A DNA stretch of 64,000 nt from Adhaeribacter swui. Lineage in GTDB: Bacteria > Bacteroidota > Bacteroidia > Cytophagales > Hymenobacteraceae. Location of the stretch: the NCBI RefSeq assembly GCF_014217805.1, contig NZ_CP055156.1, positions 4,718,585 through 4,782,584 of the forward strand, given 5' to 3'. Positions 1,612 to 46,345 of this stretch are shown one piece after another. The first letter of the stretch is position 1, and each line of letters opens with the position of its first letter. The translations under genes were made by a program, and so were the position numbers. The notes under the pieces are model-generated. The model did not search any database and was not told the DNA's origin. It was given only the letters and a program-made list of their open reading frames with translations.

Positions 1612-6194
<4,583 letters not shown>

Positions 6195-6416
6195 GCAATC
6201 AAAGGTCCGTTTGCCAAATCCAACGATTGTTGGAGACTAAAAATTTTAAAAACTAAAAGTGCTAATGTTCCAAATACTGCTTTAAAATTCATTAAATTAT
6301 AGCTGGTGTATTATGCATGAAAATAATTAGCCTGGCCCTGGGAAATTCTGGCTTGTTTAAATTAACTATAGGTTAATTCTTTCCTGTTCACCACAACAAA
6401 TTTTAAATAATACAAA

Positions 6417-20100: not shown

Positions 20101-23100
20101 CAAGAGGTAGAAGCCCGCACCGCCGAATTAAGCGAAAGTAAAGACTTGCTCCAGGCCACCATGGATGCCACCTTAAACATGATCCAGGTGTTTGAGGCCG
20201 TCCGTAATGCGGAAGGAGAAATAATTGACTTCCGGTATGTACTGCTTAACAACGAAGCGGAACGCTATATGCCCGATGCATTAGGCAAAAGCTTGTTGCA
20301 AATACAGCCCGGGGTGGTAGAAGAAGGAATTTTTGCCGCCTTTAAAGAAGTAACCGAAACCGGTATACCGCAGCAGTACGAAAAACACTATGTGCACGAG
20401 CAATTTAATGGCTGGTTTCATCAATCGGCCGTGAAGCTGGGCGACGGTGTGGCCACTACCACCGCCGATATTACCCAACGCAAAATAGCCGAGCAAGAAA
20501 TTATTCGGCTGAAAGATGAATTAGCCCGGAAAGCAACCGATAAATACCAGGCACTTTTTAATTCAATTGACGAGGGATTCACTATCATTGAACTGTTATA
20601 TGATGAAGAAGGCAAACTGGTAGACTTCATCTATCAGGAAACTAATCCTGCTTTACCCATGCATGTAGGTATGGATGTGCAGGGGAAGCGGAGATCAGAA
20701 CTTTTCCTGGATAAGAAAGATTTTCTTCTCGAAAAATATGAGCACCTAGCCAAGACAGGTGAACCGCTGCATTTTGAATATAGCATTGACGGTTTAGGTG
20801 GTCAGTGGTTCCAGGTAACTGCTGCAAGAATTGGTGGTGAAGGAAGTAAGAATCTGGGTGTTCTTTTTAGAAACATTACCGAACGCAAACAACGGGAGCA
20901 ACAGCAATCTTACCTGATAAAATTGGGCGATGCCCTGCGCCCACTGTCGGGTGCACTGGAAATACAAGACGCGGCGATGCGCGTGCTCGGCGAACAGTTG
21001 CAGGTAGACCGGGTGCTGTATGCCGAAGTGGACGATGACGGGGAGACATATAGTATTTCAGCCAATTACGTGCGCGGAGCGTATCCCAAACTCCTTGGTC
21101 GTTTTCCGACCAGCAATTTCGGCGCAGCGAGCAAGGGGTTACGCTCGGGCGAAGCGTTCGCCATCGAGAACATGACTTCGGAGGAGCGGTTGAGCGAAAA
21201 GGAACGGGCAGCGTTTATCGCCCACGATGTATACGCGAGCATTGGCGTCCCGCTCATCAAAGCGGGTCGCTGGGTCGCCAATTTAGGTATTCAGCACGGA
21301 CAAGCGCGCCAGTGGACAGCGGAAGACATTGCGCTCGTCAAGGAAACAGCCGAACGTACCTGGGCGGCAGTCGAAAGGGCAAAAGCAGAAAATGCATTAC
21401 GGAAAAGCGAAGAGAAATACCGTACGTTATTTGAAACCATTGAAGAAGGCTTTTGCATCATGGAAATGGTACGGGATGAGCAGGGCGATGTGGTAGATGT
21501 TATTTTCAGGGAAGTAAACAAGGCTTTCGAACGTCACACGGGTCTTGCCAATGTCGTCGGAAAAAGATCAACCGAGCTCATTCCAAACCAAGACCCAAAC
21601 CGCTTTAAAGATTACCAACAGCTTAGCGAAACAGGTGAAACAACACTGTCGGAAATATATATCCATGACGTCAACCGGTGGTTGCGTCTTTATCGCTTTC
21701 GTATGGGAGAGCCCGGCAGCAATCTTCTTGCAGCTGTGTTTGAAGATATCACTGAACGCAAACAGCGGGAGCAACACCAGCAATTTCTACTTAATCTCAG
21801 CGATAAATTACGCGATGCCAATAGTCTTAAAGATGTTCAGACTACGGTAACAGATTCGCTGCGCAAACATTACGATGCAGGTTGGTGCTATTATGTGGAA
21901 TGGGATGAAGAAAAAAACTCCAGTTTTGTGCAGTATGATTCTAAAAGGGATGATCTTTTGTCTCTTGCGGGTACACATGATGTTTCAGACATTCCGGAGT
22001 TTTTGGATCTTTTAAAATCCGGGCACATCTTAAATGTAAGCGACTACGAAAATTACGAATTATTAAGTCCAACCATCCGTGAACGATATACAGCCGCGGG
22101 GTTCCGATCTATGCTGGTAGCATCGCTGGTTAGGCAAGGCAGCTTGATCTCGTCATTGATCATTGGCGATACAAAAATTCGTAATTGGTCAACTTATGAT
22201 GAAGCCTTATTAGCTGAAGTGGCTGAACGCACCTGGGCAGCAATAGAGAGAGCAAAAGCCGAAGATGCTTTGCGCCGCGCTGACGAACGGTATCGCACCA
22301 TGACAGATAATGCGCCGGTTCTGATTTGGGAAACCGACGAAAGCGGCGGGACGTTTGCCAACCGATATTATACAGATTTCTTTGGCGTTTCTTTAGAAGA
22401 AATCCTCGCAATGGGCTGGACGAAATTTCTGCACCCGGAAGATGCCGAAGGGTATTTCGCGGCCTACCAAAAAGCGTTCGAGGAGCGCGAGCCGTATTCT
22501 TACGAATGTCGTTTTCTCCGCGCTGATGGCGAATACCGTTGGCTGCTCAACACGGGACATCCGCTCGGCGAAAACCGCTTCGTTGGATTTTCAGTCGACA
22601 TTACGGAACGCAATCGCGCTGAACAAGCCTTGCGTAATAGCGAAGAACGTTTGCAACTTGCCGTTGATACAGCAAGAACGGTCGTGTGGGAATGGGATGT
22701 GGCAGAAAACAGGATTGAAACCACACCAAACTTTTCGGAGGTTTATGGTCTTTCGGTCATCGAGTTTACACAGCAGGGTTTTGCACTTCTACATCCCGAT
22801 GACCAAGAAGCACATTTGCAAAAAGTTCAAAAAGCATCTAAGGAAGGCGGAGGTTATTACTCCATGTTCCGGATCGTTCGTCCGGATACTAAAGAAACTA
22901 TCTGGTTTGAGGAAAGAGCTGATTCACTCACTGGTGAAGATGGGCAAGTAATAAAGCTGGTGGGTGCTTCTATTGATATTACCGATATTAAAAAAGCAGA
23001 AAAAGCATTACAAAAAAGCGAAGAAAAATACCGAACGCTTTTCAATTCGATGGATGAAGGCTACTGCATTATCCAAATGTTGTACAATGAAGAAAACGAA

Positions 23101-25227
23101 CCCTACAATTGGATATTTTTAGAAGTAAACCCAGCCTTCGAGAAAAACAATGGTTTAAGCAATGCTACCGGTAAAACCATTTTGGAATTAACGCCCAATA
23201 TTGAGCCAAAATGGTTTGAAATTTACGGCCGCGTAGCCACCACCGGCCAACCTAACCGTTTTGAAGAAGATTCCCCGGCCTTAAACCGCTGGTTTAGTTT
23301 GTACGCCTTCCGGGTAGGAATACCTGAAGAACGTAAAGTTGCCGTACTTTTTAACGATATCACCCAGCGCAAAAATGCCGAAGCAGCCTTAATAAAATCG
23401 GAAGAACAATTCCGGCGGGCCATTCAGGATGCACCAATCCCAATTATAATGCACGCCGAAGACGGGAAAGTGCTGCAAATTAGCCGTACCTGGACGGAAC
23501 TGACCGGTTACCAACCGGAAGAAGTACCCACCTTCGACCATTGGCTTACCCATGCCTACGGCGAAGGCGCGAATATGGTGCGCCAGCACATGCAGCAATT
23601 GTTTAAAAACGATAAAGAAAGCTTAAATATTGATTTTCCGATAAAAACGCGCGTCAAAGGCCTCCGGTACTGGAGTTTCAGCGCATCCTCACCGGGCCGG
23701 TTAGCCGATGGGCGTCGTTTTATTGTAGGCATGGCCCTGGATATTACCGAACGCATAGCCTCCGAAGAAAAGCTTCAGGATTTTAATAAAATGCTGGAGA
23801 AACAAGTAACTGACCGCACGCAAGCTTTACGCGAAAGCCGCGACATGCTGCAATCTGTTTTTGATACTACCTTATTAAGCTTGTCTATTCTGAAAGCCGT
23901 ACGGGATGAAAATGGTGAGATTATAGATTTTGAAATTCGGCTAATCAACAAAGAACTGGAACGGGAAACCGGCCGTACGGATTTGGTTGGTAAATTATAT
24001 TCCGTAGAATACCCCGGTATTAAACAAGCGGGTTTATTTGACCTGATGCTTCGCGTAGTAGAAACCGGGGAACCCGGCCAGGTAGAATATTATTACCCGC
24101 ACGAAAATTTTAATAAATGGTACGCGGCCATGTTCGTAAAAATGGATGATGGCCTGGTGGCCAGCAACCTAGATATTACCGAACGCAAGCTGGCCGAGGC
24201 CGAACTAAGCCGCAACTTTACTATTTTAAAACAAGCGGAAGAAGTAGCTGGTATAGGCAGTTGGGAGTACGACTATAATACGCACAACTTCTACTGGTCC
24301 GAAGGCATGTACCATTTGTTTGGCCTGCCGGTGGGTAGTAAAAAAAGCCTGGATACTTACCTAGAGTACGTTATTGAGGAGGACCGGCATATTGCGGAAA
24401 AGTTGGTAAATTCTATAAAGCAGGAACCACAGCCTTTAGAGGAAATTATCCGGGTTCGGGTAAATGGTCAGCTTGTTTCTTTAAAAATTAAAGCTATTGT
24501 ATTGCACGACGACTTAAACCGGCCATACAAAATGCTGGGCGTAGATCTGGATGTTTCGGTGATAAAACATTTGGAACAGGAAAATCTGGAAATGAGGTTA
24601 GAACAGCAAAAAGCCCTTTTGTTGGCTATCCTGGATGCGCAACAAGAAGAAAGAAGAAGAATATCGGAATCGTTGCACAACGGGGTAGGGCAACTGTTGT
24701 ACGCTACTAAATTAAATCTGAACCAGTTAGCCGACCAGATACCAAAAGAGGTATTATCGCCGACTGCCAAACTTTTAACCGAAGCCATTCAGGAAACCCG
24801 CCGGGTATCGCATGAGTTGGTACCTATGGTATTGCAGGATTTTGGTTTAACCCGCGCCCTGCAGGAATTATGCCGCTCCTACGAACAAAGCTCCATTGAG
24901 GTAAACTGCGATGTAGATCTGGAGGGGCGTTTAGAATCGTACCTGGAGCTCGCCATTTACCGCATCGCTCAGGAACTATTAACCAACGTGGCTAAGCATG
25001 CCCAAGCCACCCGGGCAGATTTATTGTTAGAGCAAGAAGAAGGAAACATTATGTTAAAGGTTCGGGATAACGGCAAAGGCATTAATCTGAAAAACGGCAA
25101 ACCCAAAGGAATTGGTTTACGCACCATTGGCGACCGGGTAAATCTGCTAAATGGCACCTTTACAGTTTCCACCCCTGCTAGCGGGAAAGGTACTTTAGTG
25201 GTAATTCAACTTCCTAACGCAGGTTAA
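17110..25227 (+). CDS. Giant CheB-CheR-PAS/GAF sensor histidine kinase (2705 aa)
   Basis: A cytoplasmic multi-domain sensor without evident membrane segments. Order: CheB methylesterase (~24-205, Ser32 in GASAGG); CheR methyltransferase (~229-490, SAM motif VAGCATGEEAY near 330); a PAS-like linker (~530-640); a heptad coiled coil (~662-737, repeated NEEL/EELE); then about 11 PAS domains interleaved with two GAF domains (GAF ~1271-1427 and ~1559-1719; PAS at about 743, 865, 1013, 1145, 1436, 1727, 1847, 1973, 2100, 2247 and 2370). The C-terminus is a HisKA_3 dimerisation domain with phospho-acceptor His2523 (SESLHNGVGQ) and a HATPase_c domain (N box NVAKHA, G boxes DNGKGI and GIGLRTIGDR). No receiver domain is fused, so a LuxR-type response regulator encoded elsewhere is expected. 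Codon use changes noticeably between ~20900 and ~22640, suggesting imported modules. Confidence 0.92.
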   Translation: MDKERNEMESSKASEFITEKPQGFLITGIGASAGGIQALQEFFQHVPAGSGVAYVVILHLSPDHDSKLAQVIQSVTTIPVTQVKEKTKIQPDHIFVVPPNQHLILEDGFIAPSVNLFVEERRAPVDIFFRSLADTHGPRAISVVLSGTGANGSMGLKRVKERGGAVYVQNPREAEFNEMPRNAIATELVDEVLPVAEIPARIMAYRESIGTVEIVAESATRPEQQQQALREIFTQLRVRTGHDFSNYKRPTLLRRIERRINIHNLPDLPSYAAFVHQHLDEANALLKDLLISVTNFFRDKKSFEALEREILPAILKNRSAKDEIRVWVAGCATGEEAYTLAMLLAERTQSVIDAPKVQIFGTDIDEAALAVAREGLYTLNDAADVSPDRLRQFFNKEGDNYRIKREIREMVLFANHNFLKDPPFSRLDLVTCRNVLIYLNETAKERVMETFHFALRPGGVLFLGSSESVEGASDLYAIISREHHIYQKREVSMRNFPVPESVPNFQLREQPLGKLNDPDNRSVNRISFGELHQKMLEQYAPPSLVVNEDYEIMHLSEKVGSYLEFSGGEPTKNLLKLIKPELRLELRSALYQAVQRQTPIEARNIPFSNNGERQFINLLVRPVTKEGESVKGFILIIFEPSQHTPSDESIIISADEPVARHLEEELIQVKAQLRSAAEQYEYQAEELKASNEELQAMNEELRSAAEELETSKEELQSINEELRTVNQELKVKIEETSVTSNNLQNLINSADVATIFLDRAFCIRLYTPAARQIFNLIPSDYGRPLSDITHRLEYGNLLTDTETVLDKLTVLEREVTTTDHRTFMMRVLPYRTTEDRINGVVITFYDITQRQHAEKALQQSEERLRLLIESAKDYAIYTLDADRKVISWSSGAQLIFGYTEAEILGQSGDIVFVPEDRENKAPEKEAEKAQKEGRAENERWHLRKNNSRFWGSGLTHPLRDDQGNTIGFVKIMRDLTEQRQMEEALRQAEEKYRTQLEQEVEARTAELSESKDLLQATMDATLNMIQVFEAVRNAEGEIIDFRYVLLNNEAERYMPDALGKSLLQIQPGVVEEGIFAAFKEVTETGIPQQYEKHYVHEQFNGWFHQSAVKLGDGVATTTADITQRKIAEQEIIRLKDELARKATDKYQALFNSIDEGFTIIELLYDEEGKLVDFIYQETNPALPMHVGMDVQGKRRSELFLDKKDFLLEKYEHLAKTGEPLHFEYSIDGLGGQWFQVTAARIGGEGSKNLGVLFRNITERKQREQQQSYLIKLGDALRPLSGALEIQDAAMRVLGEQLQVDRVLYAEVDDDGETYSISANYVRGAYPKLLGRFPTSNFGAASKGLRSGEAFAIENMTSEERLSEKERAAFIAHDVYASIGVPLIKAGRWVANLGIQHGQARQWTAEDIALVKETAERTWAAVERAKAENALRKSEEKYRTLFETIEEGFCIMEMVRDEQGDVVDVIFREVNKAFERHTGLANVVGKRSTELIPNQDPNRFKDYQQLSETGETTLSEIYIHDVNRWLRLYRFRMGEPGSNLLAAVFEDITERKQREQHQQFLLNLSDKLRDANSLKDVQTTVTDSLRKHYDAGWCYYVEWDEEKNSSFVQYDSKRDDLLSLAGTHDVSDIPEFLDLLKSGHILNVSDYENYELLSPTIRERYTAAGFRSMLVASLVRQGSLISSLIIGDTKIRNWSTYDEALLAEVAERTWAAIERAKAEDALRRADERYRTMTDNAPVLIWETDESGGTFANRYYTDFFGVSLEEILAMGWTKFLHPEDAEGYFAAYQKAFEEREPYSYECRFLRADGEYRWLLNTGHPLGENRFVGFSVDITERNRAEQALRNSEERLQLAVDTARTVVWEWDVAENRIETTPNFSEVYGLSVIEFTQQGFALLHPDDQEAHLQKVQKASKEGGGYYSMFRIVRPDTKETIWFEERADSLTGEDGQVIKLVGASIDITDIKKAEKALQKSEEKYRTLFNSMDEGYCIIQMLYNEENEPYNWIFLEVNPAFEKNNGLSNATGKTILELTPNIEPKWFEIYGRVATTGQPNRFEEDSPALNRWFSLYAFRVGIPEERKVAVLFNDITQRKNAEAALIKSEEQFRRAIQDAPIPIIMHAEDGKVLQISRTWTELTGYQPEEVPTFDHWLTHAYGEGANMVRQHMQQLFKNDKESLNIDFPIKTRVKGLRYWSFSASSPGRLADGRRFIVGMALDITERIASEEKLQDFNKMLEKQVTDRTQALRESRDMLQSVFDTTLLSLSILKAVRDENGEIIDFEIRLINKELERETGRTDLVGKLYSVEYPGIKQAGLFDLMLRVVETGEPGQVEYYYPHENFNKWYAAMFVKMDDGLVASNLDITERKLAEAELSRNFTILKQAEEVAGIGSWEYDYNTHNFYWSEGMYHLFGLPVGSKKSLDTYLEYVIEEDRHIAEKLVNSIKQEPQPLEEIIRVRVNGQLVSLKIKAIVLHDDLNRPYKMLGVDLDVSVIKHLEQENLEMRLEQQKALLLAILDAQQEERRRISESLHNGVGQLLYATKLNLNQLADQIPKEVLSPTAKLLTEAIQETRRVSHELVPMVLQDFGLTRALQELCRSYEQSSIEVNCDVDLEGRLESYLELAIYRIAQELLTNVAKHAQATRADLLLEQEEGNIMLKVRDNGKGINLKNGKPKGIGLRTIGDRVNLLNGTFTVSTPASGKGTLVVIQLPNAG

Positions 25228-35249: not shown

Positions 35250-35636
35250 ATGTGGTTTAATTGGAAAATGCCCCGTACGCTTCGGCCTTATTACGAACAG
35301 GAATTAAAGGAATATCAGCAAAATGAGCAAAAGCAGCAACTGGTAAAGGCCTGGTACCATTTGGAACGAGCTCATATTTTAGGGCAGCCTTACCCAGTAG
35401 AACATACCGTTGTACACGGCAAGATGCTGGCTTTTGGCATTAAATCCCGTAATACCAAAGAAGTAGTAGGGCAGTTACCCCGGCTGCTGGTGGGCGGGAT
35501 AAAATCCTGGGCGGGTACCATACCCGTCGGGAATACCGGTGGGGCGAATGTAGCGGCCTGGAAACCGATGCCCATTCCGGACGACTTGCAGGAGATTATT
35601 CGGCAAGCAAATTCTAAAGTTAGATCGATACAATGA
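35250..35636 (+). CDS. DUF3703 protein
   Basis: 128 residues. Family features visible: KAWYHLERAHILGQPYP near residue 35, HGKMLAFGIKSRNTKEVVGQ, and the C-terminal GNTGGANVAAWKPMPIPDDL. The histidines in ERAH and VVHGKM could bind metal. No signal peptide. DUF3703 genes commonly accompany heavy-metal resistance determinants; the molecular role is unknown. The stop codon overlaps the ATG of the next gene by 4 bp (ATGA), indicating translational coupling with the P-type ATPase. Confidence 0.85.
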   Translation: MWFNWKMPRTLRPYYEQELKEYQQNEQKQQLVKAWYHLERAHILGQPYPVEHTVVHGKMLAFGIKSRNTKEVVGQLPRLLVGGIKSWAGTIPVGNTGGANVAAWKPMPIPDDLQEIIRQANSKVRSIQ

Positions 35637-37642
35637 AAACAAACGAAGATAGTAACCCGAGTGCTCCCTTAAAGCCCATGGAGATTACTTCTCCCCGTAC
35701 CGCGGAGCAACCAGGTCCGACGAAAACGGATGCGAAAGGCTGTTGTGACGTAACACCAGATGCAGATACGGTTGAACACGAAGAACACGAAGAAACTTCT
35801 TACTTACCCACGATCATCAGCCTGGTTCTATTACTAGCCGGTATTGCTTTCGATTATTTTAAAGGGAGCTGGTTTACGGATTATACCCGGTTAGCTTTCT
35901 ATAGCTTTGCCTATATCCTTGTAGGGGGTAAAGTATTACTGCACGCAGCTAAAAACATGGCAAAAGGCAGTATTTTTAATGAATTTCTGCTGATGGGTAT
36001 GGCTACGCTTGGCGCTTTTTACATTGGCGAATATGCGGAAGGCGTAGCAGTAATGTTATTTTACGTAATTGGCGAGCACTTCCAGGAAGCAGCCGTGGCG
36101 CGATCCCGCAAATCAATTAAGGCTTTAATTGATAACCGGCCGGAAATCGTGAACCTGGTACAACCAGGGCATATAAGCCCCGTTAATCCGCAACAGGTTA
36201 CAGTAGGAGATACCATTCAGGTTAAACCTGGCGAGAAAGTAGCTTTAGATGGAATACTGCTCACCGAACGGTCTTCTTTTAATACCGCCGCCCTGACCGG
36301 GGAATCTAAACCGGATACTAAAACCAAGGGGGAAAAAGTATTAGCGGGCATGATTAATCTGGACCAGGTAATTCAGTTGGAAGTAACTTCCACTTACGAA
36401 AACAGTGCCCTTTCTAAGATCTTGCAATTAGTAGAACAAGCGAGTAGCCGCAAAGCAAAAACGCAGCAATTTATTACTCGTTTCGCAAGTATTTACACGC
36501 CGGTAGTCGTGTTTTTAGCTATTGCCCTCACGCTGTTACCTTACTTTTTTGTCGCGGAATACGTGTTTAATGATTGGCTTTACCGGGCTTTAATTTTCTT
36601 GGTGATTTCGTGCCCCTGCGCACTGGTAATTTCTATTCCTTTGGGGTACTTTGGTGGTATTGGGGCCGCTTCTAAAAACGGAATTCTTTTTAAAGGATCT
36701 AATTACCTGGACTTAATGACCAAGGTAGATACCGTGGTAATGGATAAAACGGGCACCTTAACCGAAGGTGTTTTTCAGGTGCAGGAAGTGCAAGTAAATG
36801 GTTTAGATAAAGCAGAGTTTTTATCCTTAACCGCCGCCCTGGAAAGCAAATCGACGCACCCTATGGCCTTAGCCGTAGTCGCATATGCGGGCGAAAGCTA
36901 CCAGCAGAGGCAGGTAACCCACGTGGAAGAAATATCCGGACATGGTTTAAAAGGCACGGTAGATGACAAAATGCTGTTAGTCGGAAATGGTAAACTTTTA
37001 AAAAAATTTAAAGTTGCTTATCCTGTTAAAATTGATTCTATTTTAGAAAGCATTGTTTTGGTAGCTATTAATAATCAATACGCCGGTTACATTACCATTG
37101 CCGATAAAATTAAAGCTGATGCCCAAGCAGCAATAGCGAAGCTGCACCAGTTAGGCATTAAAACGATTGTAATGCTATCGGGTGATAAGGATAGCATCGT
37201 GCAAAAAGTGGCAGCTTTCTTGCAAATAGATCAGGCTTTTGGCGGCTTGTTGCCGGAAGATAAAGTAAACCAAGTAGAAGCTTTAAAGAAACAGGGTAAA
37301 ACTGTAGCGTTTGTGGGTGATGGTATCAACGATGCTCCGGTTATTGCCTTAGCCGATGTAGGATTGGCGATGGGTGGTTTAGGATCGGATGCAGCTATTG
37401 AAACAGCCGATGTCGTGATCCAAAACGATCAACCATCTAAAATTGCGACGGCTATTAACCTAGGGAAGAAAACCAATCAAATTGTTTGGCAAAATATCGG
37501 TTTAGCTTTTGGCGTAAAAGCTATTGTATTGGGGTTAGGTGCCTTTGGAGTGGCATCCATGTGGGAAGCAGTTTTTGCCGATGTAGGAGTTGCCTTTCTA
37601 GCTATTCTCAACGCCATTCGCATTCAGCGGATGAAGTTTTAA
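35633..37642 (+). CDS. P1B-type heavy-metal-translocating ATPase (Zn/Cd/Pb type)
   Basis: 669 residues. The metal-selective CPC motif is at 327-329 (SCPCALVIS), the phosphorylated Asp is D371 in DKTGTLTEG, and the hinge GDGINDAPVIALADVG and the STHPMA histidine-proline dipeptide are present. There is no N-terminal HMA domain; instead a ~55-residue tail carries a CC pair and a His/Glu cluster (GCCDVTPD, EHEEHEE), a likely substitute metal sensor. CPC together with the TM8 region GLAFGVKAIVLGLG fits Zn2+/Cd2+/Pb2+ export (ZntA/CadA group). It would move metal from cytosol to periplasm, from which the CzcA system could export it. Confidence 0.93.
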   Translation: MKTNEDSNPSAPLKPMEITSPRTAEQPGPTKTDAKGCCDVTPDADTVEHEEHEETSYLPTIISLVLLLAGIAFDYFKGSWFTDYTRLAFYSFAYILVGGKVLLHAAKNMAKGSIFNEFLLMGMATLGAFYIGEYAEGVAVMLFYVIGEHFQEAAVARSRKSIKALIDNRPEIVNLVQPGHISPVNPQQVTVGDTIQVKPGEKVALDGILLTERSSFNTAALTGESKPDTKTKGEKVLAGMINLDQVIQLEVTSTYENSALSKILQLVEQASSRKAKTQQFITRFASIYTPVVVFLAIALTLLPYFFVAEYVFNDWLYRALIFLVISCPCALVISIPLGYFGGIGAASKNGILFKGSNYLDLMTKVDTVVMDKTGTLTEGVFQVQEVQVNGLDKAEFLSLTAALESKSTHPMALAVVAYAGESYQQRQVTHVEEISGHGLKGTVDDKMLLVGNGKLLKKFKVAYPVKIDSILESIVLVAINNQYAGYITIADKIKADAQAAIAKLHQLGIKTIVMLSGDKDSIVQKVAAFLQIDQAFGGLLPEDKVNQVEALKKQGKTVAFVGDGINDAPVIALADVGLAMGGLGSDAAIETADVVIQNDQPSKIATAINLGKKTNQIVWQNIGLAFGVKAIVLGLGAFGVASMWEAVFADVGVAFLAILNAIRIQRMKF

Positions 37643-38237
37643 GCAAGGTAAAGGCGGCCAGTAATGGTAGCCTTTGGTTTTATATTTTCTGATTATAACT
37701 CTAGTATTGCGGATTTCTCTTTCCATTGTGCTTCTTCTTAGATATATCAATGCTAATTAGAGAAAATGCTTGGCCCGAAAATATATTTATCCATAGCCTA
37801 CTAAAACGACCAATTTCGTAGGGTGTGTTGTTAGCGGCAGCTACATAGACGAAGGCTAAATAACAGAAGTTCGTGATAAGTACTCATTTAACATTTTTAC
37901 TATCGCGCGGATTTACTTCCGTGACTTGTATTTAGGTAAGTGTCAGGTTTTTCTTTCCATTAGATTCTGCAGGATGACGTACAAAAGGCTAAATGGCCTA
38001 TCTCGAACTCACGTAAAACAAGTATCGTATCCTGAATTTTAAAAATTTAAAAATTTCCCAATACTGGTAACAAAATTCATTCGGGTGGTATCTTGTTATA
38101 TTATTCTTTTCTTATATTTCAGAAAAGTTAATCTACTATTTACTACCAGAGGTTACTATTTGCTAACTTCTGCTTATACTTAACGTGCCGAAGTACTCCT
38201 TACCCAAAGCACCGCTTAAAAAACACCCAAGAACCGA
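37643..38237. other. 595-bp gene-free spacer before the type I R-M locus
   Basis: AT-rich, with no supported ORF, RNA gene or terminator. An AT palindrome lies near 38035-38055. A TATATTTC element (~38114) with a TTG 17 bp upstream is a weak promoter candidate for hsdM. The lack of any coding remnant means the left border of the R-M locus cannot be defined from sequence alone. Confidence 0.4.
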
Positions 38238-39787
38238 ATGGCCAAAAAGAATACCGCTACTACTACCAAACCCAAAGCCGATATAGATTTTGAAAACGAG
38301 TTATGGAATGCCGCTAACGAATTGCGCGGTGCTGTAGCTGAAAACCAGTATAAAGATTACGTGCTTTCGTTGCTGTTCCTGAAGCATTTGTCGGAGCGCT
38401 ACGAAATCCGGAAGCAGGAAATCCAATTATCTTTCCAGGACCCCGAAAGCGATTATTATAACATAGACGCCAGAGAGCAAAGCTACGTGCTGGACGATGA
38501 ACTGGAATACCAGGTTAAAAACGTGTACCGCTTGCCCCGGGAAGCTACCTGGACCTACCTGCGCGTAAACGCCGAACAAGACGATATAAAAGTAAAGGTT
38601 GATAAAGCCTTTGTAGCCATAAACGACATTCTGAGTGTTCGTAACCCCGATTACACCGGCGTGCTGGAACCCATTTTTGTAAAAAGCCAGTTATCGCCTA
38701 CCCAGGTGGCGGGCCTGATTAATTTATTTTCACAGGAAAAGTTCTCGGAGGTAAATAATCCCGAAAGCGATATTTACGGCCGGGTGTACGAATATTACAT
38801 TGGCAAATTCGCCATGGCCGAAGGCTCCAGTGCCGGGCAGTTTTTTACGCCGGGCTCGGTGGTGCGCCTGCTCGTAGAAATGATAGAACCCCTGCGCGGC
38901 CGCATCCTGGATTTGGCCTGCGGTAGCGGCGGCATGTTTGTGCAAAGCTTAAAATTTGGGCTGGCCCACGGCGGCAACAAAAACGATATTTCTATTTACG
39001 GCCAGGAACGCTACGAAGGCACCCTGCGCCTCTGCAATATGAACTTGCTTTTGCGCAACCTCTCCTTTGAGGTAAAGCTCGGCGACTCGCTCCTGAACGA
39101 TAGGTTCCCCGACCTGAAGGCCGATTACGCCCTCATGAACCCGCCGTTTAATATTTCGAACTGGCATCCTGAACTGTTGCCCGAAAACGACCCGCGCTTG
39201 TTTGGGGCCAAAGACCTGTTTACCACCCCCGGCAACGCCAACTACATGTGGTTCCTGACCATCTGGCACCATTTAAGTTCGCGCGGCACGGGTGGGGTGG
39301 TAATGGCCAACGGTGCCATGACCTCCGGGAGGGCTGGCGAAAAAAACGTGCGCGAATACATGCTCCGCCACCAAATGGTAGATTGCATTGTACAAATGCC
39401 CGATAAATTATTCCTGACCACCGGCATACCCGCCTGCTTGTTTATCTTAAGTAAAAACCGCGACGGCCGCGACGGCGAACACCGCCAGCGCCAGCAGGAA
39501 GTTTTGTTTATTGATGCCCGCAAACTGGGCCAGTTGGCCAGCCGCCGCCTGCGCGTATTCCACGACGAAGATATTGCCAAAGTATAGCCGATACCTACCA
39601 CCAGTGGCGTAACCTGAACGGCAACTATACCGATATTGATGGATTCTGCAAAGCCGCTACCCTCCCGGAAATAGAAGCCAATAATTTTGTGCTTTCGCCG
39701 GGCCGTTACGTGGGTTCCGAAGCCAAAGAAACCAATGGCGTTCCTTTGAGGGTTCAATCAAATGTTATTTTTAATGCTGCAGCATAG
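38238..39787 (+). pseudogene. hsdM: hsdM, type I restriction-modification methyltransferase subunit, frameshifted and truncated
   Basis: The first 449 codons encode the N-terminal HsdM domain (ENELWNAANELRG) and the N6-adenine methyltransferase domain, with SAM motif LDLACGSGG (224-232) and catalytic NPPF (301-304). At 39585 the frame meets TAG. Deleting the TA at 39583-39586 restores the expected continuation (ADTYHQWRNLNG...FVLSPGRYVGSE) for a further ~65 codons to a stop at 39785-39787, so a 2-bp insertion is the simplest cause. Even the restored frame loses HsdM similarity after GVP (about 39745), where the inserted NACHT segment begins. The usual helical C-terminus that contacts HsdS is therefore gone. 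The catalytic core could still fold, but without HsdS no specific methylation is expected. Confidence 0.85.
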
Positions 39788-39823
39788 TTTTTAATTATTT
39801 TCCTAATATAAATCTAAAATTAT

Positions 39824-42800
39824 ATGTCTATATCCAAACGTCTCCCAGAGGTAAAAACCTTAGCTTCTATTCTTCCTAAGGGAACTGCAGGAGGAAAAGA
39901 GTTTGCTCGTATTGTTGATTTATTACTTTTTCATGATAGTAGAAGAAGTAATAAAAAATTTACAATATTTAGTGATGCAGCTGGAGATTACATGGGATTA
40001 GATAGTTTCGAAGGAGACGGTTTTAGAAAAGAAGGTCATACAGGTTATCAATATAAATATTTCCCTTCTCCGTTAAGTGCTTCCCACCGTAAGGAAATAG
40101 CCAATAGTCTAAGGAAGGCTGCAGAAAAACATAAAGAAAGTAAAATAAAAAAATGGATTTTAGTTACACCTGAAAATTTAACAGAATCAAGTACAAGAAA
40201 AGATTTTGGAGACGTTACTTGGTTTGAAAATTTAAGAACTGAGTTGAATATTAACTTTGAAATTGAACATTGGGGACATCAGCAATTACTAGCTTTATTT
40301 CTTGAAACACCATCTATTTGCTTGTTTTATTATCCTGAATTAATAAATGAAGGATTCAAGTTAAAAAATACTATTAATGAAACAAGGGCTAGATATAATG
40401 ATAATCTACTCTCATTATATAAAAACATTGAATTTGTAGGAATGTCAATTTATAAACAGGAAGCAACAAAAGGTATTCCAATGGAGAATATTTATATCCC
40501 TGTTAAATTAATACCTGAAGCTGCGGATGATCACAGTGGTAATAATATTTTTATGGATCCTGTTTATTTGCTAAATCCAGGAGCTAAATCAGTAATTCTT
40601 GGAGATCCAGGCTCTGGAAAATCTACATTATTAAGGTTCCTATCATTGTGTGGCATTTCTAAACCCGTTCAAAAGAGATATAATACTAAACAAGATGTAA
40701 GGTTACCAATCTTTGTTGTATTACGAAGCTATGCAGATGAACTTAAGTCTAAACTTAATTTATCCTTAATCGATTATATTCTTGAAACAGTACAGGCTGA
40801 TTTTAATCTTAGGGGTGCTGATTCTGATTTTTTTGAGTATTATTTAGAAAGTGGTCAAGCTATTTTACTTTTTGATGGTTTAGATGAATTACCAGATTCA
40901 AACTTTAAACATATTGTTAGAGATAGAATTAGGTCATTAATTACTACATTTCCGGGTAATACTGTTATTGTAACTTCAAGAGTTGTTGGTTATGATAATC
41001 CTTTCCGTTTTGATGATAAAGAATTTAATCATACAAAAGTATCTAAACTACAACTTCCTGAGATTGAACAATTCGTAAAAGATTGGTATTCCGTACGAAT
41101 TGAAAGTGATAAAGAACGAAATGCAAATATCAATGACTTGATTCGAATTGTAAGGGATGAAAATCATACAGCTATAAAAGAATTAGCTGAAAACCCTTTA
41201 CTATTAACTATAGTGACTTTAGTCCATAGAATAGATGCAGTTTTACCTGATGAAAGAGTAGTATTGTATCAAAAATGTACCGAAACTTTATTAAATACTT
41301 GGCAAACTTGGAAATTTAAAGATTCTGAAATTAAAAATAAAGGAAAAATTGAGAGGCGAAACCGACTACGAATGGAAGTTATTGCAAATTGGATGCATAA
41401 CCAAAGTACAGGTACGGGTAGAACCCAAAGATCAATAGTCCCATATAATGAACTTCTAAAATTTTTAACAGAACATATAAGCGAAGTAGAAAAACCTAGT
41501 GAATCGGAAGATGATCCTCAAGACCTTGCGAATAATTTTATTGATTTCATTAAAAAGCGAGCAGGATTATTAATTGAGGTTGGGGATCAGAAATACAGTT
41601 TTGTCCATTTAACATTCCAAGAATATCTTACTTCAACTTACATTATTACGAGCAGTGAAAAGGAAGGATTAGTTAATATTTGGAAAACTTTAGAAGCATA
41701 CGCACGAGATCCTAGATGGTATGAAGTAATTAGATTATTAATTGCAGGTTTAAAATCAAACGAAAGCCAAGAATTTCTAATAGATAAAATATTAGTAGAA
41801 AGAGACAAAAAGAGATATGTAAAAAGTCCAATATTGTTAGGAGGGTTATTACTTGATGGAGTATTATCCGCTGAAGATCGTAAAGAGGAAATTCTTTCTA
41901 ATATTATTTTATGTAGTACAAAAGCCTCCCGACCTAATGAACTAAGGCCCCTAATTTCAATAATAAGAAGTTATGTAGCCAAGGAAAAATCAAATGCTGA
42001 GATTATTAGCCAAGTATTTCTTGAATTATGGGAAAATGAAAAGAATAATGAGCAAATATTACGATTAATTCTATTTTTCATTTCTACGGGATTGGAAAAT
42101 GACATAATTACAGAAAAAATAGTTTCTTATATTAAAAATGATTCTAACGAGTATTTAAAGTTATTTTTCCTAAATCACAATGAACACAAAGGTGGATTTT
42201 CCAATATTGTTAAGTCTCAAATGAATTTACTCAGCAAAGTTCAATCTTATTATTCCATAACCTCTCCTTATTCAAACTTTATTGCTGCCACCTTGCATTC
42301 AATATTTTTTTATTTTAATAAAGAATTTGGTTACAAAAACGCTTTTAACCAATTCTTATCACCCTTGCGAACAGGTGCAGCATATGGGCCTTTTGAGGAT
42401 TTTACCTACAATTCTTTGATTATTTCAAACCAGAATAAAAATTTAGATGGTAAAACAAAATTAAAATTTATAACGGATCAGAGGCTATTATCTCGGACAA
42501 ATAAAAACAAATTAAGACCAAACTTATTTTCAAAAATAGATAAGACTTTGCAATCTGCCTTTGATCACATGAAAGGCGAAAATAGTGAAGGTAAAAAGAA
42601 AACAAATAGGGTACATCCTTCTGATTCAAGTTATTTTAGAAAGATTTTACATAATGAGATTTTAAATTCTGGTTTAAAAAAAGACAACTTATTAGGACTA
42701 GGTAACTCGTCAAGACTATTTGATAGAGAAATTGCAATTATCCGTGATTCAAATATGGATGATACTTGGAAGCTTTTCCAATCAAATATTAAATTAATCA

Positions 42801-43303
42801 CCCCGTTGTTAAATATTCTATGTGATGGTTTTGAATTAGAACCTAGGGCATTATGGTTTGAAGCTTTAAGGGTTGGATTTTTGCCTAAAATTCCTGAAAC
42901 AAACTTGTTCTCAAATGATTATATTTTAGAAGACAAGATACTATATTCAAATACTGCATCTTCTTTTTCAAATAACGGATATCATGAGGCATTATTAATA
43001 TTGGTTAATTTATGGATTAGCATTTTTGGAAACCCTTCAGTAATTGAAAATTCTAATTTTCTTGATTTGGTAGAAAATGCAAGGAAATCTGATTTAGCAC
43101 CTGTTAAATTGGTCGTAAATATTTTTGATTTAATTTATAGTAGTGATTCTAAATCAGATGAAATAATTTCAATGATAATTTCTGATAACCCTGAATTCGT
43201 TGCAATGTTTAGAGAAATTAATTGGCATTGGATTAAACCTTCAGAAATCAATGATGACATAAACACGATTAGTCATGATAAGAGATTAATAAAAAAAATG
43301 TAA
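39824..43303 (+). CDS. NACHT-domain NTPase with putative PD-(D/E)xK-like N-terminus (bacterial NLR-like, candidate defence protein)
   Basis: 1159 residues. N-terminal ~1-165: Glu26 (GGKEFARIVDLLL), Asp60 (MGLDSFEG) and Gln76-x-Lys78 (GYQYKYF) match the spacing of a restriction-endonuclease-like fold. Residues ~250-420 are the NACHT core with Walker A GDPGSGKST (260-268) and Walker B LLFDGLDE (348-355), followed by sensor-like VTSRVVGYD. A winged-helix segment (~590-606) carries SFVHLTFQEYL, typical of NACHT proteins. The remaining ~500 residues are helical-repeat-like and unlike any family I recognise; by analogy they would sense the trigger. The gene is visibly AT-rich and codon-biased compared with both flanks and replaces hsdS and the 5' end of hsdR. 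Related bacterial NACHT proteins protect against phage by abortive mechanisms. Start ATG chosen as the first in frame, 36 bp after the hsdM remnant. Confidence 0.9.
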   Translation: MSISKRLPEVKTLASILPKGTAGGKEFARIVDLLLFHDSRRSNKKFTIFSDAAGDYMGLDSFEGDGFRKEGHTGYQYKYFPSPLSASHRKEIANSLRKAAEKHKESKIKKWILVTPENLTESSTRKDFGDVTWFENLRTELNINFEIEHWGHQQLLALFLETPSICLFYYPELINEGFKLKNTINETRARYNDNLLSLYKNIEFVGMSIYKQEATKGIPMENIYIPVKLIPEAADDHSGNNIFMDPVYLLNPGAKSVILGDPGSGKSTLLRFLSLCGISKPVQKRYNTKQDVRLPIFVVLRSYADELKSKLNLSLIDYILETVQADFNLRGADSDFFEYYLESGQAILLFDGLDELPDSNFKHIVRDRIRSLITTFPGNTVIVTSRVVGYDNPFRFDDKEFNHTKVSKLQLPEIEQFVKDWYSVRIESDKERNANINDLIRIVRDENHTAIKELAENPLLLTIVTLVHRIDAVLPDERVVLYQKCTETLLNTWQTWKFKDSEIKNKGKIERRNRLRMEVIANWMHNQSTGTGRTQRSIVPYNELLKFLTEHISEVEKPSESEDDPQDLANNFIDFIKKRAGLLIEVGDQKYSFVHLTFQEYLTSTYIITSSEKEGLVNIWKTLEAYARDPRWYEVIRLLIAGLKSNESQEFLIDKILVERDKKRYVKSPILLGGLLLDGVLSAEDRKEEILSNIILCSTKASRPNELRPLISIIRSYVAKEKSNAEIISQVFLELWENEKNNEQILRLILFFISTGLENDIITEKIVSYIKNDSNEYLKLFFLNHNEHKGGFSNIVKSQMNLLSKVQSYYSITSPYSNFIAATLHSIFFYFNKEFGYKNAFNQFLSPLRTGAAYGPFEDFTYNSLIISNQNKNLDGKTKLKFITDQRLLSRTNKNKLRPNLFSKIDKTLQSAFDHMKGENSEGKKKTNRVHPSDSSYFRKILHNEILNSGLKKDNLLGLGNSSRLFDREIAIIRDSNMDDTWKLFQSNIKLITPLLNILCDGFELEPRALWFEALRVGFLPKIPETNLFSNDYILEDKILYSNTASSFSNNGYHEALLILVNLWISIFGNPSVIENSNFLDLVENARKSDLAPVKLVVNIFDLIYSSDSKSDEIISMIISDNPEFVAMFREINWHWIKPSEINDDINTISHDKRLIKKM

Positions 43304-43314
43304 TAAGAAATTTG

Positions 43315-43350
43315 AAAAGACCTTCTTTGATCAAAAAAGAAGGTCTTTTT
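43315..43350 (+). terminator. Rho-independent terminator of the NACHT gene
   Basis: A perfect 14-bp stem (43315-43328 with 43336-43349), loop GATCAAA, closing in a T-run. It begins 11 bp after the NACHT stop codon, so the gene brought or evolved its own end. It would stop read-through from hsdM into hsdR, separating the two former operon members. Confidence 0.85.
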
Positions 43351-43360
43351 AAAAAATTAA

Positions 43361-46345
43361 TTAGAAAACGAGCAAGGCCAACCGCAGTTCGAGCATTTCT
43401 ACGCCCTCAACTACGAAGACGTCGCGCAAAACAGCTTCCTGGTCGTAAACCAGTTTACCGTACAAGGCAAAAATAACCGCCGTCCCGATTTAATTATTTT
43501 CATCAACGGTTTGCCCCTGGTGCTGTTCGAGTTTAAAAACCCTTTCGACCAGGATACCACCGTAGAAGCCGCTTTTAACCAGGTGCAGCATTACATCCAG
43601 GATATTCCGCGGGTATTCGAAACCAATGCCCTGTGTATTATCAGCGATGGCTTTACCACCCTGCACGGCATGTTCAGCAGCGGCCTGGAGTGGTTTGCTG
43701 CCTGGAAAAGCACCGACGGGGGCGAAGTTGTTACAGACGATTTTGCCCTCGAAACCCTCATAAAAGGTTTACTGGTGCCGGAGCGCCTGCTGGCCTACAT
43801 CCGGTTTTATATTTTCCACGAGCTGGATAACGGCCGGCTTATAAAAAAGGGCGCCAAATACCACCAGTTTTTCGGCATCCAATACGCGCTCGCCGAAACC
43901 AAAAAATCCATTCGTCCGCTCGGCGATGGCCGCATTGGTGTTATCTGGCATACCACCCGTTCGGGCAAAAGCATTACCATGGCCATTTATGCCGGTATTC
44001 TGCGCCAGCTACCCGAGCTAAAAAACCCCACCATTGTGGTGCAGGTAGACCGCTTTGATTTAAACAAGCAGCTCTACGATGATTTTGTGGCCGCCAAAGA
44101 CTTGGTCGGGGATGTAGCCCTGGCCCAAACCACCGACGAGTTACGCCAGCTCCTGGGCGGCGAAGGTGGCGGCGTGGTGTTCAGTACCATCGAGAAATTC
44201 CGGTTAAAAGATACCACTGATGGGCTACGGGAAGCCGAACACCCTATCCTGAGTCAGCGCGAAAATATTATTGTGATTGCCGATGAGTGCCACCGCACCC
44301 AGTACGGCCTGATAACCGGCTTTGCCAACAACCTACGCAAAGCTTTGCCCAACGCCTCCTTTATTGGTTTCACCGGCACCCCCGTCGATAGCAAAGACGC
44401 CGATACGGTAGCCGTTTTCGGGGAAATTATTCATACCTATGATATTAAACAAGCCACCGCCGATAAAGCCGTGGTGCCGATTTACTACGAGCCCCGCCTG
44501 GCCAAACTGCACCTGGGCAACGAGCAGATAGAAGAAGAAGCCGAAGAAATTACTACCGGCCTGGAAGAAAGCGATAAAAACCAAATTATGTGGGCGGCCA
44601 TGGAAGATGCCGCCGGGGCCAAAGAACGCGTAGAAGCCATTGCCCGCGATATCCTCAGCCACTACCTGAACCGCACCGCTAACCTGCCCGGTAAAGCCAT
44701 GGTAGTGTGCATGAGCCGCCGCAACTGCGTGAAAATGTACGATGCACTTACGGCCCTGCCCAATTGCCCCGAAGTTGCCGTGATTATGACCACCAACATT
44801 GCCAAAGACCCGAAGGAGTGGAACCCGCACGTGCGCACCAAGGAGGCCATGGAAGAAGTAAAAACCCGCTTCAAAAACCCCGATGATGAACTGCAAATAG
44901 TAATTGTGCGGGATATGTGGCTCACCGGCTTCGATAATCCGGCCCTTCACACGCTGTACGTCGATAAAGTCATGAGCGGCCACAACCTCATCCAGGCCGT
45001 AAACCGCGTCGCCACCGTTTTCCGCGACAAACCTAGCGGCCTGATTGTAGACTACATCGGCATCGGCGACAAACTCCGCGATGCCACCAAAAAATACACC
45101 GGCTCCGGTGGTCAGAGTGCCGTAACCATCGACGTAGAAGAAGCATTTGAGCTAACTAAAGAAGTTATCCAGGCCTTAAAAGTCCATTTGCCCTGATATT
45201 TTTACAAATCACTCGAAATGTCCCCCTTCGGAGGGGGTAGGGGGAGGACAATCACCCCCGAAGAACTAACTACCCTGTCATCGGCAGCAGAATCGCTGGC
45301 GAATTATACTTCTTCTTCGGAATTTGCGAACACAGGTACTGAAAGGAAAAATCCTCCTCCAACCCCCTCCGAAGGGGGACAATCGGCAACCCCGGCCTAT
45401 GTGGTTCTAAATGGTGCATCATTACTGGAACAGTTTGGGTGGAGTTATTACAGCTGGCCTTATTTAAAGGAAGGCGATAAGTTTAAGCTGGTAACGCGGG
45501 CGGTAAACATTATTGTGGCCGATGAGGAAGACTCCAAAGCGTTCATGCAAAATGAAAAGAAGCTAAGCGCCTTAGTACCCATTATCAAAAACCATCAAGC
45601 CGTTAGCGACATTGCCGTGGATATTTTGTTTTTTCAGCACGTAGGAGCAGCGGTACGCAAAGTAAAATACCCGCAAAACAACATCAAGAAAAAAGAAAGC
45701 CAGATAAAAGACCTGATCCACCGCAGCATCGAAAGCGAAGAGGTGGTAGATGTGTTCCAGATGGCCGGTATCGACCGCTTCGATATTTCCATCATCAACG
45801 ACGATTTCCTGGCCACCGCCAAAGAACAGAAAAGCGGTAATGAGCTTAAACTCGAGCTCTTGCGCCAAATCCTGAACGATGAAATTAAAGTGCGCTCCAG
45901 CAAGAACCTGGTAAAGTACCGCAAACTAAAAGAAGAACTAGAAAAGATTATCCGGGATTACCACGACCACTTCTTCGATAGCTTAATTGCCCTGCAAAAA
46001 GTACGCGATGTAGCCCGCGACATGCAGGAAGAAGACCTTCGCCGGAAGCAACTTGGCCTTACAGAAGACGAAGAAGCATTTTACGAAATCCTGGCCAAAC
46101 ACCCAAACGCCGTTCAAGATTTTGAGTTGATAAAAGAAGTGGTTAAGGATGTTACTAAAGTTATCCGGAAAAACGCTCAACAACCCGATTGGTACAAAAA
46201 AACCGATACCAAAGCGCAAATTATGCTTTCTGTAAAAAGTATCCTGCGCCGCAAAGGTATCACCGAGGAACTTCAGGAAATCTTAGCGGAGATTATGGAA
46301 CAAGCCGAGTCGCGGTACCGGGAGTGGTCATTTTCGGTGGCGTAG
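43361..46345 (+). pseudogene. hsdR: hsdR, type I restriction subunit, 5'-truncated and interrupted by an in-frame stop
   Basis: The frame opens after a stop at 43358, and HsdR similarity starts at once (ENEQGQPQFEHFY), with the first ~100 or more residues missing. The nuclease motifs RRPDLIIF and VLFEFKNP remain. Helicase motif I reads HTTRSGKS (43949-43972) where relatives have HTTGSGKT, a Gly-to-Arg change (codon 43958-43960). The DEAD-like DECHRTQYG and later motor motifs (TGFDNP, QAVNR) are present. An in-frame TGA at 45194-45196 ends the first part. The same frame resumes and from ~45430 encodes the HsdR C-terminal helical region to 46345. Between them lies a ~235-bp insertion with a palindromic element. 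The NACHT segment removed its start, so it is almost certainly non-functional. Confidence 0.85.
45220..45380. repeat. 161-bp element with 29-bp terminal inverted repeats inside hsdR
   Basis: The ends 45220-45248 and 45352-45380 are inverted repeats matching at 27 of 29 positions; the conserved part is GTCCCCCTTCGGAGGGGG and its complement. AAT flanks both sides and may be a 3-bp target duplication. The internal ~100 bp has no recognisable gene. The C/G-run ends resemble a class of small palindromic repeats seen across Bacteroidota genomes (recalled, not checked). Its insertion lies next to the premature TGA in hsdR. Confidence 0.65.

Follow-up and report, generated by a model that had tools for sequence, protein, structure and literature searches.

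A NACHT gene between the remnants of a type I restriction-modification locus in Adhaeribacter swui, and a recurrent cargo slot in Bacteroidota

Introduction

In this article, I discuss a 64,000-nucleotide stretch of Adhaeribacter swui DNA (hereafter the window; C3:4718585-4782584 of a 6.2-Mb genome in three contigs), in which a single gene for a NACHT nucleoside triphosphatase (NTPase) lies where the closest intact relative of a type I restriction-modification (R-M) locus carries the 3' end of hsdM, a cargo gene, hsdS and the 5' end of hsdR. The same position, between hsdM and hsdS-hsdR, is occupied in loci across Bacteroidota by changing cargo that, judged by family matches, is varied and mostly defence-type, and the observations as a whole are probably best explained by a bacterial NACHT (bNACHT)- or Avs-like sensor, putatively armed with a nuclease, that is the present occupant of a recurrent slot embedded in R-M genes. 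Embedded defence genes and nuclease bNACHT proteins are already known; what is new here is the breadth of the slot, the dead R-M arms that can flank it and the extra copies of the hsdM end found inside it. The open-access literature that I searched, mostly at the level of titles and the opening of abstracts, yielded neither a NACHT gene in an hsd locus nor a paper on this Bacteroidota slot. Handles beginning with L, G and C denote loci, genomes and contigs, respectively.

Replacement of the centre of an hsd locus

The reference for the replacement is L039, from genome G009 of the same genus, which has the order hsdM (539 amino acids, aa), a 686-aa cargo gene, hsdS (403 aa) and hsdR (1088 aa). 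DNA identity to L039 is 92% over window positions 38234-39747 (hsdM) and 88% over 43365-46344 (hsdR), with none between, so that 3,669 bp of L039 (4964-8632), holding the hsdM 3' end, one cargo gene, hsdS and the hsdR 5' end, are swapped for 3,617 AT-rich bp of the window (39748-43364), holding one 1,159-codon NACHT gene and a strong hairpin. A sequence-only reading of this DNA had put the end of HsdM similarity near 39745 and the start of HsdR similarity near 43361, and the alignment ends at 39747 and 43365 agree with it closely; its claim that part of an hsd locus has given way to the NACHT gene is borne out by the intact locus in relatives. The features concerned are these:

38238-39747, plus strand: hsdM remnant; open reading frame (ORF) 38238-39587 (449 aa) with Pfam HsdM_N and N6_Mtase, homology continuing to 39747
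39748-39823, no strand: left junction and 5' leader of the NACHT gene, AT-rich; the L039 match ends at 39747
39824-43303, plus strand: NACHT (STAND) NTPase gene, 1159 aa; Avs2-type N-terminal domain at about 1-195, NACHT core at about 180-660, helical C-terminal region at about 660-1159
39824-40423, plus strand: proposed PD-(D/E)xK nuclease domain, residues 1-200, from an hhalign match to Avs2-like N-termini
43311-43353, plus strand: hairpin resembling a rho-independent terminator, after the NACHT gene; -21.9 kcal/mol, z -6.4, 0/200 shuffles as good
43365-46345, plus strand: hsdR remnant, in pieces 43511-45196 and 45218-46345; Pfam HSDR_N end, SWI2_SNF2 and T1RH-like_C

The damage is not confined to the junctions. 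The hsdM remnant is short of about 36 C-terminal codons and its reading frame is already ended at 39587 by a frameshift, upstream of the junction at 39747; the hsdR remnant is without its first 95 residues (by alignment to intact L039) and is interrupted by an in-frame stop at 45194-45196; and, as the sequence-only reading held, there is no hsdS in the locus (tblastn, 12 HsdS queries, E 1e-4). The intact hsdM, hsdS and hsdR of a functional type I enzyme are not found here and, given a further lesion in each remnant, the R-M system is almost certainly dead. The NACHT gene also differs in composition, with a guanine-cytosine (GC) content of 0.30 (0.19 at third codon positions, GC3) against 0.51-0.53 (GC3 0.64) in the remnants. 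Within the hsdR remnant, 45223-45377 is a perfect 15-bp inverted repeat pair around 125 bp, and a similar insert in the otherwise open hsdR of L039 is read in frame, so the repeat element seems to encode a linker.

The remnants remain close to the sister locus (protein identity 95% for the HsdM piece, 96% and 84% for the first and second HsdR pieces). Silent and replacement changes in HsdM number 34:12 on the window branch and 30:6 on the G009 branch with L041 as outgroup, and 29:4 and 16:5 with L051; in HsdR (first 550 codons of the shared part) they number 35:6 and 30:5. Prolonged decay has left no clear mark in the remnants, so in relation to the split between the window and G009 the break is probably recent, although the HsdM comparison rooted on L041 leans the other way. 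The ancestral order was probably hsdM-cargo-hsdS-hsdR and not plain hsdMSR, and the former cargo gene was therefore probably lost too; the NACHT gene may have arrived in one event and hsdS been lost in another. The idea of a recent swap of one defence system for another is thus supported as to a recent break, with its small excess of amino-acid changes, and is to be amended as to plain hsdMSR as the probable starting point; the comparison it proposed did turn up intact hsd loci lacking the insert, and the closest of these, L039, carries another cargo gene between hsdM and hsdS. The cargo gene of L039 itself (5102-7162, 686 aa) has no Pfam (E 1e-3), PADLOC or NCBIfam family match, and I take its N-terminus to resemble a GHKL ATPase.

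Beyond the two hsd arms, the only window match to L039 or L041 is a 95-bp copy of the hsdR end, which indicates, from these alignments, that the hsd locus is not tied to one fixed address. G003, G024 and G009 conserve the mnmE-thioredoxin-NRAMP side and have no hsd genes there; the other flank differs, and these three genomes gave no clean empty site. An assembly chimera is unlikely, both junctions lying within a 5.97-Mb contig and hsdS-less loci occurring in nine other genomes.

A recurrent slot and its cargo

Now considering the same locus type more widely, 27 loci of relatives, 77 further loci and the window made a sample of 105, reduced to 87 by removing 18 repeats; 68 of these were usable (hsdM and hsdR on one stretch), and the other 19 were dropped because of contig ends, hsdM fragments, or an absent or much shortened hsdR. 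In every usable locus (68/68), GC is lower in the stretch that follows hsdM than in hsdM itself (means 0.31 vs 0.47, Wilcoxon p 7.5e-13), with a contrast of just 0.01 in L101 and L103; among the dropped loci it is absent in L161 (0.44, 0.44) and L159 (0.46, 0.49) and reversed in the hsdM fragment L156. The 12 HsdS queries found hsdS in 58/68 usable loci, and a slot ORF of at least 100 aa is present in 79 of the 83 loci examined.

The contents of the slot accord with the earlier remark that hsd loci are hotspots for other defence genes, since this locus type proves to be a slot with many defence-type genes. Twenty cargo proteins from 16 Hymenobacteraceae loci were compared with Pfam; 17 match at E 1e-3 and 12 lie above a curated cut-off, in the families GmrSD_N, KAP, AAA_15/AAA_21 (four), NACHT (L046, L057), SMEK, Piwi, protein kinase and DndB. 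Matches below the cut-off include nSTAND5 (L065), a weak RVT_1 (L052) and AAA/SMC (L053), and the cargo of L039, of L041 and one gene of L063 have no Pfam match (E 1e-3). Ten of the 20 that I chose for PADLOC gave eight matches at E 1e-3, and the L055 cargo is HEC-01A (E 5e-238). Outside these loci, 51 had a cargo ORF of at least 150 aa, and the largest such ORF was taken from 47 of them (I dropped L102, L114, L139 and L159): Pfam assigns KAP to 8, AAA_15 to 7, SLFN_AlbA_2 (Schlafen-like) to 6, YhcG to 3, AbiEi_2 to 3 and RVT_1 to 2, and PADLOC at E 1e-10 assigns AriA to 7 and PifA to 6. The nearest gene upstream of hsdM, available as a control in 43/47 loci, is AriA in 0/43 and PifA in 0/43; 20 PADLOC families have one upstream member each, including type I HsdR, DpdF and pAgo, which shows that upstream genes are sometimes defence genes too. 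The window conforms to the pattern, its defence-type gene being flanked by hsd genes of one system.

Cargo and specificity subunit need not travel together. The cargo of L127 and L137 is 94% identical with hsdS at 22%, that of L043 and L054 61% with hsdS at 35%, and L043 and L046 have hsdS 60% alike and different cargo, so that, by these identities, cargo can change separately from hsdS. In L048 (12777-15718, minus strand), a short-Argonaute pair (a SMEK/REase-type partner plus Piwi) lies between hsdM and hsdS. Two hsdS-less loci of different genera, L041 and L063, have in common a cargo gene (502/574 aa, 76% identity) with no Pfam match and, for the L063 copy, no PADLOC match either; it is a candidate for a new defence family, and its sharing fits, without proving, cargo exchange between broken loci.

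The ten hsdS-less loci among the 68 all belong to the family of the window, the Hymenobacteraceae. In all ten, hsdR is short of its first 16 to 169 residues (tblastn), and hsdM is shortened in five (L057, L061, L062, L065 and the window) and extends to residue 532-537 in the other five. A strict site-specific insertion at these loci was rejected on account of ten different end-point pairs (tblastn ends being approximate), even with the window and L062 having the same hsdR start, 96. As drawn, an HsdM tree of 32 rows, with many weak nodes, places the ten in about seven positions, the window beside intact L039. Eight of the nine others hold cargo with no match to the window NACHT gene, and in L046 (Pontibacter ummariensis) a NACHT gene other than that of the window lies between an intact hsdM and an intact hsdS; on this distribution, loss of hsdS is not linked to NACHT.

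The hsdM 3' end

In 7/87 loci, a count that does not tell displaced ends from later duplications, the hsdM 3' end occurs a second time, 0.7-1.5 kb past hsdM, beyond the first cargo gene and, where the limit of the slot is known, inside it; six other parts of HsdM, searched in the same way, gave 0/87. With hsdM turned to the plus strand, the copies are:

L045, 4573-4737: extra hsdM 3' end
L047, 7347-7490: extra hsdM 3' end
L051, 4882-4980: extra hsdM 3' end
L091, 12378-12500: extra hsdM 3' end
L092, 5719-5904: extra hsdM 3' end
L098, 6343-6447: extra hsdM 3' end
L144, 4919-5062: extra hsdM 3' end

They begin at residues 478-506 of 539 and reach the end or nearly so, with differing starts and lengths, and their identity to the hsdM of their own locus is 98% in L045 and 55-86% in the other six. 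Four of the five shortened hsdM genes of hsdS-less loci, that of the window included, stop at residues 471, 475, 503 and 507, in the interval in which the copies start, and the fifth at 294. One possible account, formed post hoc from these alignments, is that the extra ends are the footprint of a cassette that enters at the hsdM 3' end and brings its own replacement end, and because the second end lies beyond the first cargo gene in some relatives, the hsdM 3' end would be the usual point of entry. In L039 and L051, moreover, the hsdR 3' end recurs downstream of hsdR.

The NACHT protein

The AT-rich, 1159-codon NACHT gene of the sequence-only reading is confirmed (Pfam NACHT at residues 256-423, E 1.3e-12), and G265, K266 and D351-E355, that is, Walker A and DGLDE, are invariant among 7 sequences. 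AlphaFold2 with 14 sequences gave the whole protein a mean predicted local distance difference test (pLDDT) of 56.2 and a predicted template modelling score (pTM) of 0.52, the core (180-660) being mostly at pLDDT 70-92, the C-terminus helical and of low confidence and the N-terminus poor. The best Foldseek matches of this model are NLRP3, NOD2 and NLRC4 (E about 1e-10), and the portal-bound Avs4 structure 8dgf is also matched (E 3e-4). The structure prediction that had been recommended therefore delivers a core like those of nucleotide-binding leucine-rich repeat (NLR) proteins, and low confidence at both termini. An order of effector, NACHT and sensor would fit, with the putative effector at a mean pLDDT of 38.6 in a single-sequence model of the N-terminus and the C-terminal part consisting of low-confidence helices only.

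Residues 71-195 match Avs2-like N-termini by hhalign (97.7%, E 1.9e-12), with QxK aligned; the set comprised the L066 and L067 proteins and a Rhodothermus Avs2. In 395 genomes of the phylum the N-terminus recurs in two proteins, of 1426 aa (E 6.7e-10) and 1422 aa (E 4.4e-7), both of which match NCBIfam Avs2 in their middle parts, though under that model's cut-off; viral contigs hold no N-terminal relatives. Against the Avs4 'nuclease' model, the N-terminus of the Rhodothermus protein scores E 1.2e-8, well short of that model's cut-off, and in PADLOC residues 24-121 of the NACHT protein weakly match LmuA (E 0.0056). I take Q76/K78 (QxK) and GDYMGLD at 54-60 (GDxxGxD) to be an Mrr-type PD-(D/E)xK site. 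The slot NACHT protein of L057 matches Mrr_cat (E 6.7e-5).

The C-terminal region of about 500 residues was said to belong to no recognised family, and residues 660-1159 indeed have no Pfam match above cut-off and one below it, Tox-PL-2 (E 0.053). With no match among plasmids, none in viral contigs and two short ones in the 395 phylum genomes (E 3.5e-5 and 2.6e-4), the C-terminus is without a convincing relative in the samples searched. The same NACHT gene, which was to be looked for elsewhere, is full-length in just 1/200 family genomes, its own; four others match in the NACHT region only, at 26-29%, as do plasmids and phages, and a search by exact peptide patterns, which reaches close relatives only, found none of the whole protein in genome contigs or viral contigs. 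The gene's proposed own terminator stands as the hairpin listed above, which a consensus terminator scan calls on the minus strand only, and no sigma-70-type promoter stands out (16 found vs 18.7 expected, in a scan covering that type only). The hairpin and the AT-rich leader suggest that the NACHT gene is an autonomous unit, and its product reads as one more probable nuclease-type NLR relative.

Elsewhere in the window, a P-type ATPase gene lies left of the hsd remnants (35633-37642), with a second copy, 91% identical, on contig C1, and positions 17110-25227 form an unusually long ORF of 2705 aa, whose start, I presume, resembles a CheB-type methylesterase.

How the locus may have arisen and may act

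In the explanation that I favour, the window NACHT gene would be the present cargo of the slot between hsdM and hsdS-hsdR, and its arrival, or adjoining deletions, would have taken out hsdS, the earlier cargo and the ends of hsdM and hsdR that face each other, leaving it alone between dead R-M remnants and closed by its own hairpin terminator. By analogy with bNACHT25 and bNACHT32, the C-terminal helical region or a partner would detect infection, the NACHT core would oligomerise with ATP, and the N-terminal PD-(D/E)xK-like domain would cut DNA, so that the cell is killed or arrested and the infection stopped (abortive infection). A broader claim, to which I give slightly less than an even chance, is that immunity genes use one Bacteroidota type I R-M lineage as a landing platform: cassettes that are AT-rich and hold one gene or a few would enter at the hsdM 3' end with a fresh hsdM end, leaving the displaced end past the cargo; the GC-richer, conserved hsdM and hsdR would act as arms, possibly through recombination in these flanks; cargo would change independently of hsdS; and in the Hymenobacteraceae broken arms would still flank cassettes after the loss of hsdS, here around an NLR-like protein with an undescribed sensor.

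Several observations weigh against parts of this picture. L126 and L152 share cargo (50-62%) and hsdS (56%) together, the window is without an extra hsdM end, and the 12 HsdM replacement changes against 6 in the sister, with L041 as outgroup, leave room for some decay. For the effector, a single-sequence model of the N-terminus is uninformative at that low pLDDT, Pfam finds no nuclease family in it, the hhalign match begins at residue 71 and so excludes the proposed acid at 54-60, its profile matched no solved structure, and in the plasmid search Avs2 matches at only E 0.06 and is outscored by two Streptomyces proteins with kinase annotations (E 0.004-0.01). The fold matches have low TM-scores (0.2-0.3 of the query), and, the C-terminus having no relatives, its sensing role is an assumption.

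A stepwise history, in which the NACHT gene entered a slot with hsdM, hsdS and hsdR intact and deletions on both sides followed later, is the most serious competitor, if an unlikely one: L046 holds a NACHT gene in just such a setting and the further lesions in both remnants speak of general decay, but both hsd ends are gone around one gene, the new stretch nearly equals the lost one in length (3,617 vs 3,669 bp), and, since no single deletion can clear both sides of a gene that is kept, at least two would be needed. It is improbable that the gene has a non-defence role, for example in signalling or development; its orphan C-terminus leaves some room for one, whereas its position in a slot among many defence-type genes of relatives, its putative nuclease-type N-terminus and its patchy distribution (1/200 family genomes) all point to immunity. 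The closeness of the HsdM and HsdR pieces to the sister could be read as favouring one working hybrid of NACHT protein and remnants, with an HsdR helicase piece, say, as partner, and yet the hsdM frameshift, the hsdR nonsense codon, the missing HsdS, the strong hairpin between NACHT and hsdR and the other cargo of other hsdS-less loci make this very improbable. Least probable of all, to the point of being negligible, is an R-M enzyme kept active by an HsdS from elsewhere in the genome: another hsdS does exist (C3:1136279-1137472), but it belongs to a different type I locus, which has an hsdR and an hsdM of its own, that HsdM is only 27% identical, and the window hsdM and hsdR are themselves broken, and such a rescue was rejected. 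This second, unrelated locus (L195, G000:C3:1127500-1146500; hsdR 999 aa, hsdS 435 aa, hsdM 542 aa) has extra genes between its hsd genes as well, which I take to be GxxExxY-like, DUF1016-like and ATPase-like.

Significance and comparison with known systems

It is known that embedding in an R-M locus can point to a new defence gene, and the published cases that I met, in the parts of the sources available, are single loci or cover few genomes. Across Bacteroidota, a slot whose flanks are conserved offers a direct route to collecting candidate defence genes in the phylum, the extra hsdM ends make the mechanism by which it is filled testable, and the window suggests that an R-M system may die while its shell stays in use as an address.

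Some integrative elements enter the 3' end of a gene, restore the gene and leave the displaced end behind, and the displaced-looking hsdM 3' ends in seven loci are alike in this respect; the slot copies differ in that they vary in start (478-506) and length, and no integrase was noticed in the slots, none having been searched for. HEC-01, which I take to be an embedded candidate in PADLOC, has its HEC-01A as cargo of the same slot in L055, a gene family other than the window NACHT. The likeness to Avs2 and Avs4 lies in an N-terminus akin to those of L066, L067 and the Rhodothermus Avs2 (weakly so in the plasmid search) and a core that matches the Avs4 structure 8dgf, whereas the window ATPase is a NACHT and its C-terminus is unrelated. 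None of the NCBIfam Avs models is among 12 matches at E 0.1, the best of which is EruA (17.7 bits vs a cut-off of 1000).

In the portions of the cited papers available to me, to which the following is limited, the clade 6 proteins bNACHT25 and bNACHT32 require their PD-(D/E)XK active site for defence and are reported to degrade DNA on infection (PMC12169576). By that description they have the same single-protein plan of N-terminal PD-(D/E)XK effector (proposed here), NACHT and C-terminal sensor; they are described with NCH1 (PMC12169576). Pfam, above its cut-off, gives the window protein no C-terminal domain, and its C-terminus has no convincing relative in the samples searched. Islands of hsdM and hsdS are mobilised by phage-driven transfer in Staphylococcus aureus (PMC12829572). 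TgvAB is embedded in a type I R-M locus of VPI-2 in Vibrio cholerae (PMC11411939), and DarTG2 in one of E. coli RRDM, at a site called a potential recombination hotspot (PMC12255303). Both resemble the window in having separate defence genes between hsd genes, and both loci keep all three hsd genes, active in Vibrio (PMC11411939, PMC12255303), whereas the window locus has lost hsdS and its arms are shortened. The DarTG2 site lies between hsdS and hsdR (PMC12255303), while the Bacteroidota slot described here lies between hsdM and hsdS.

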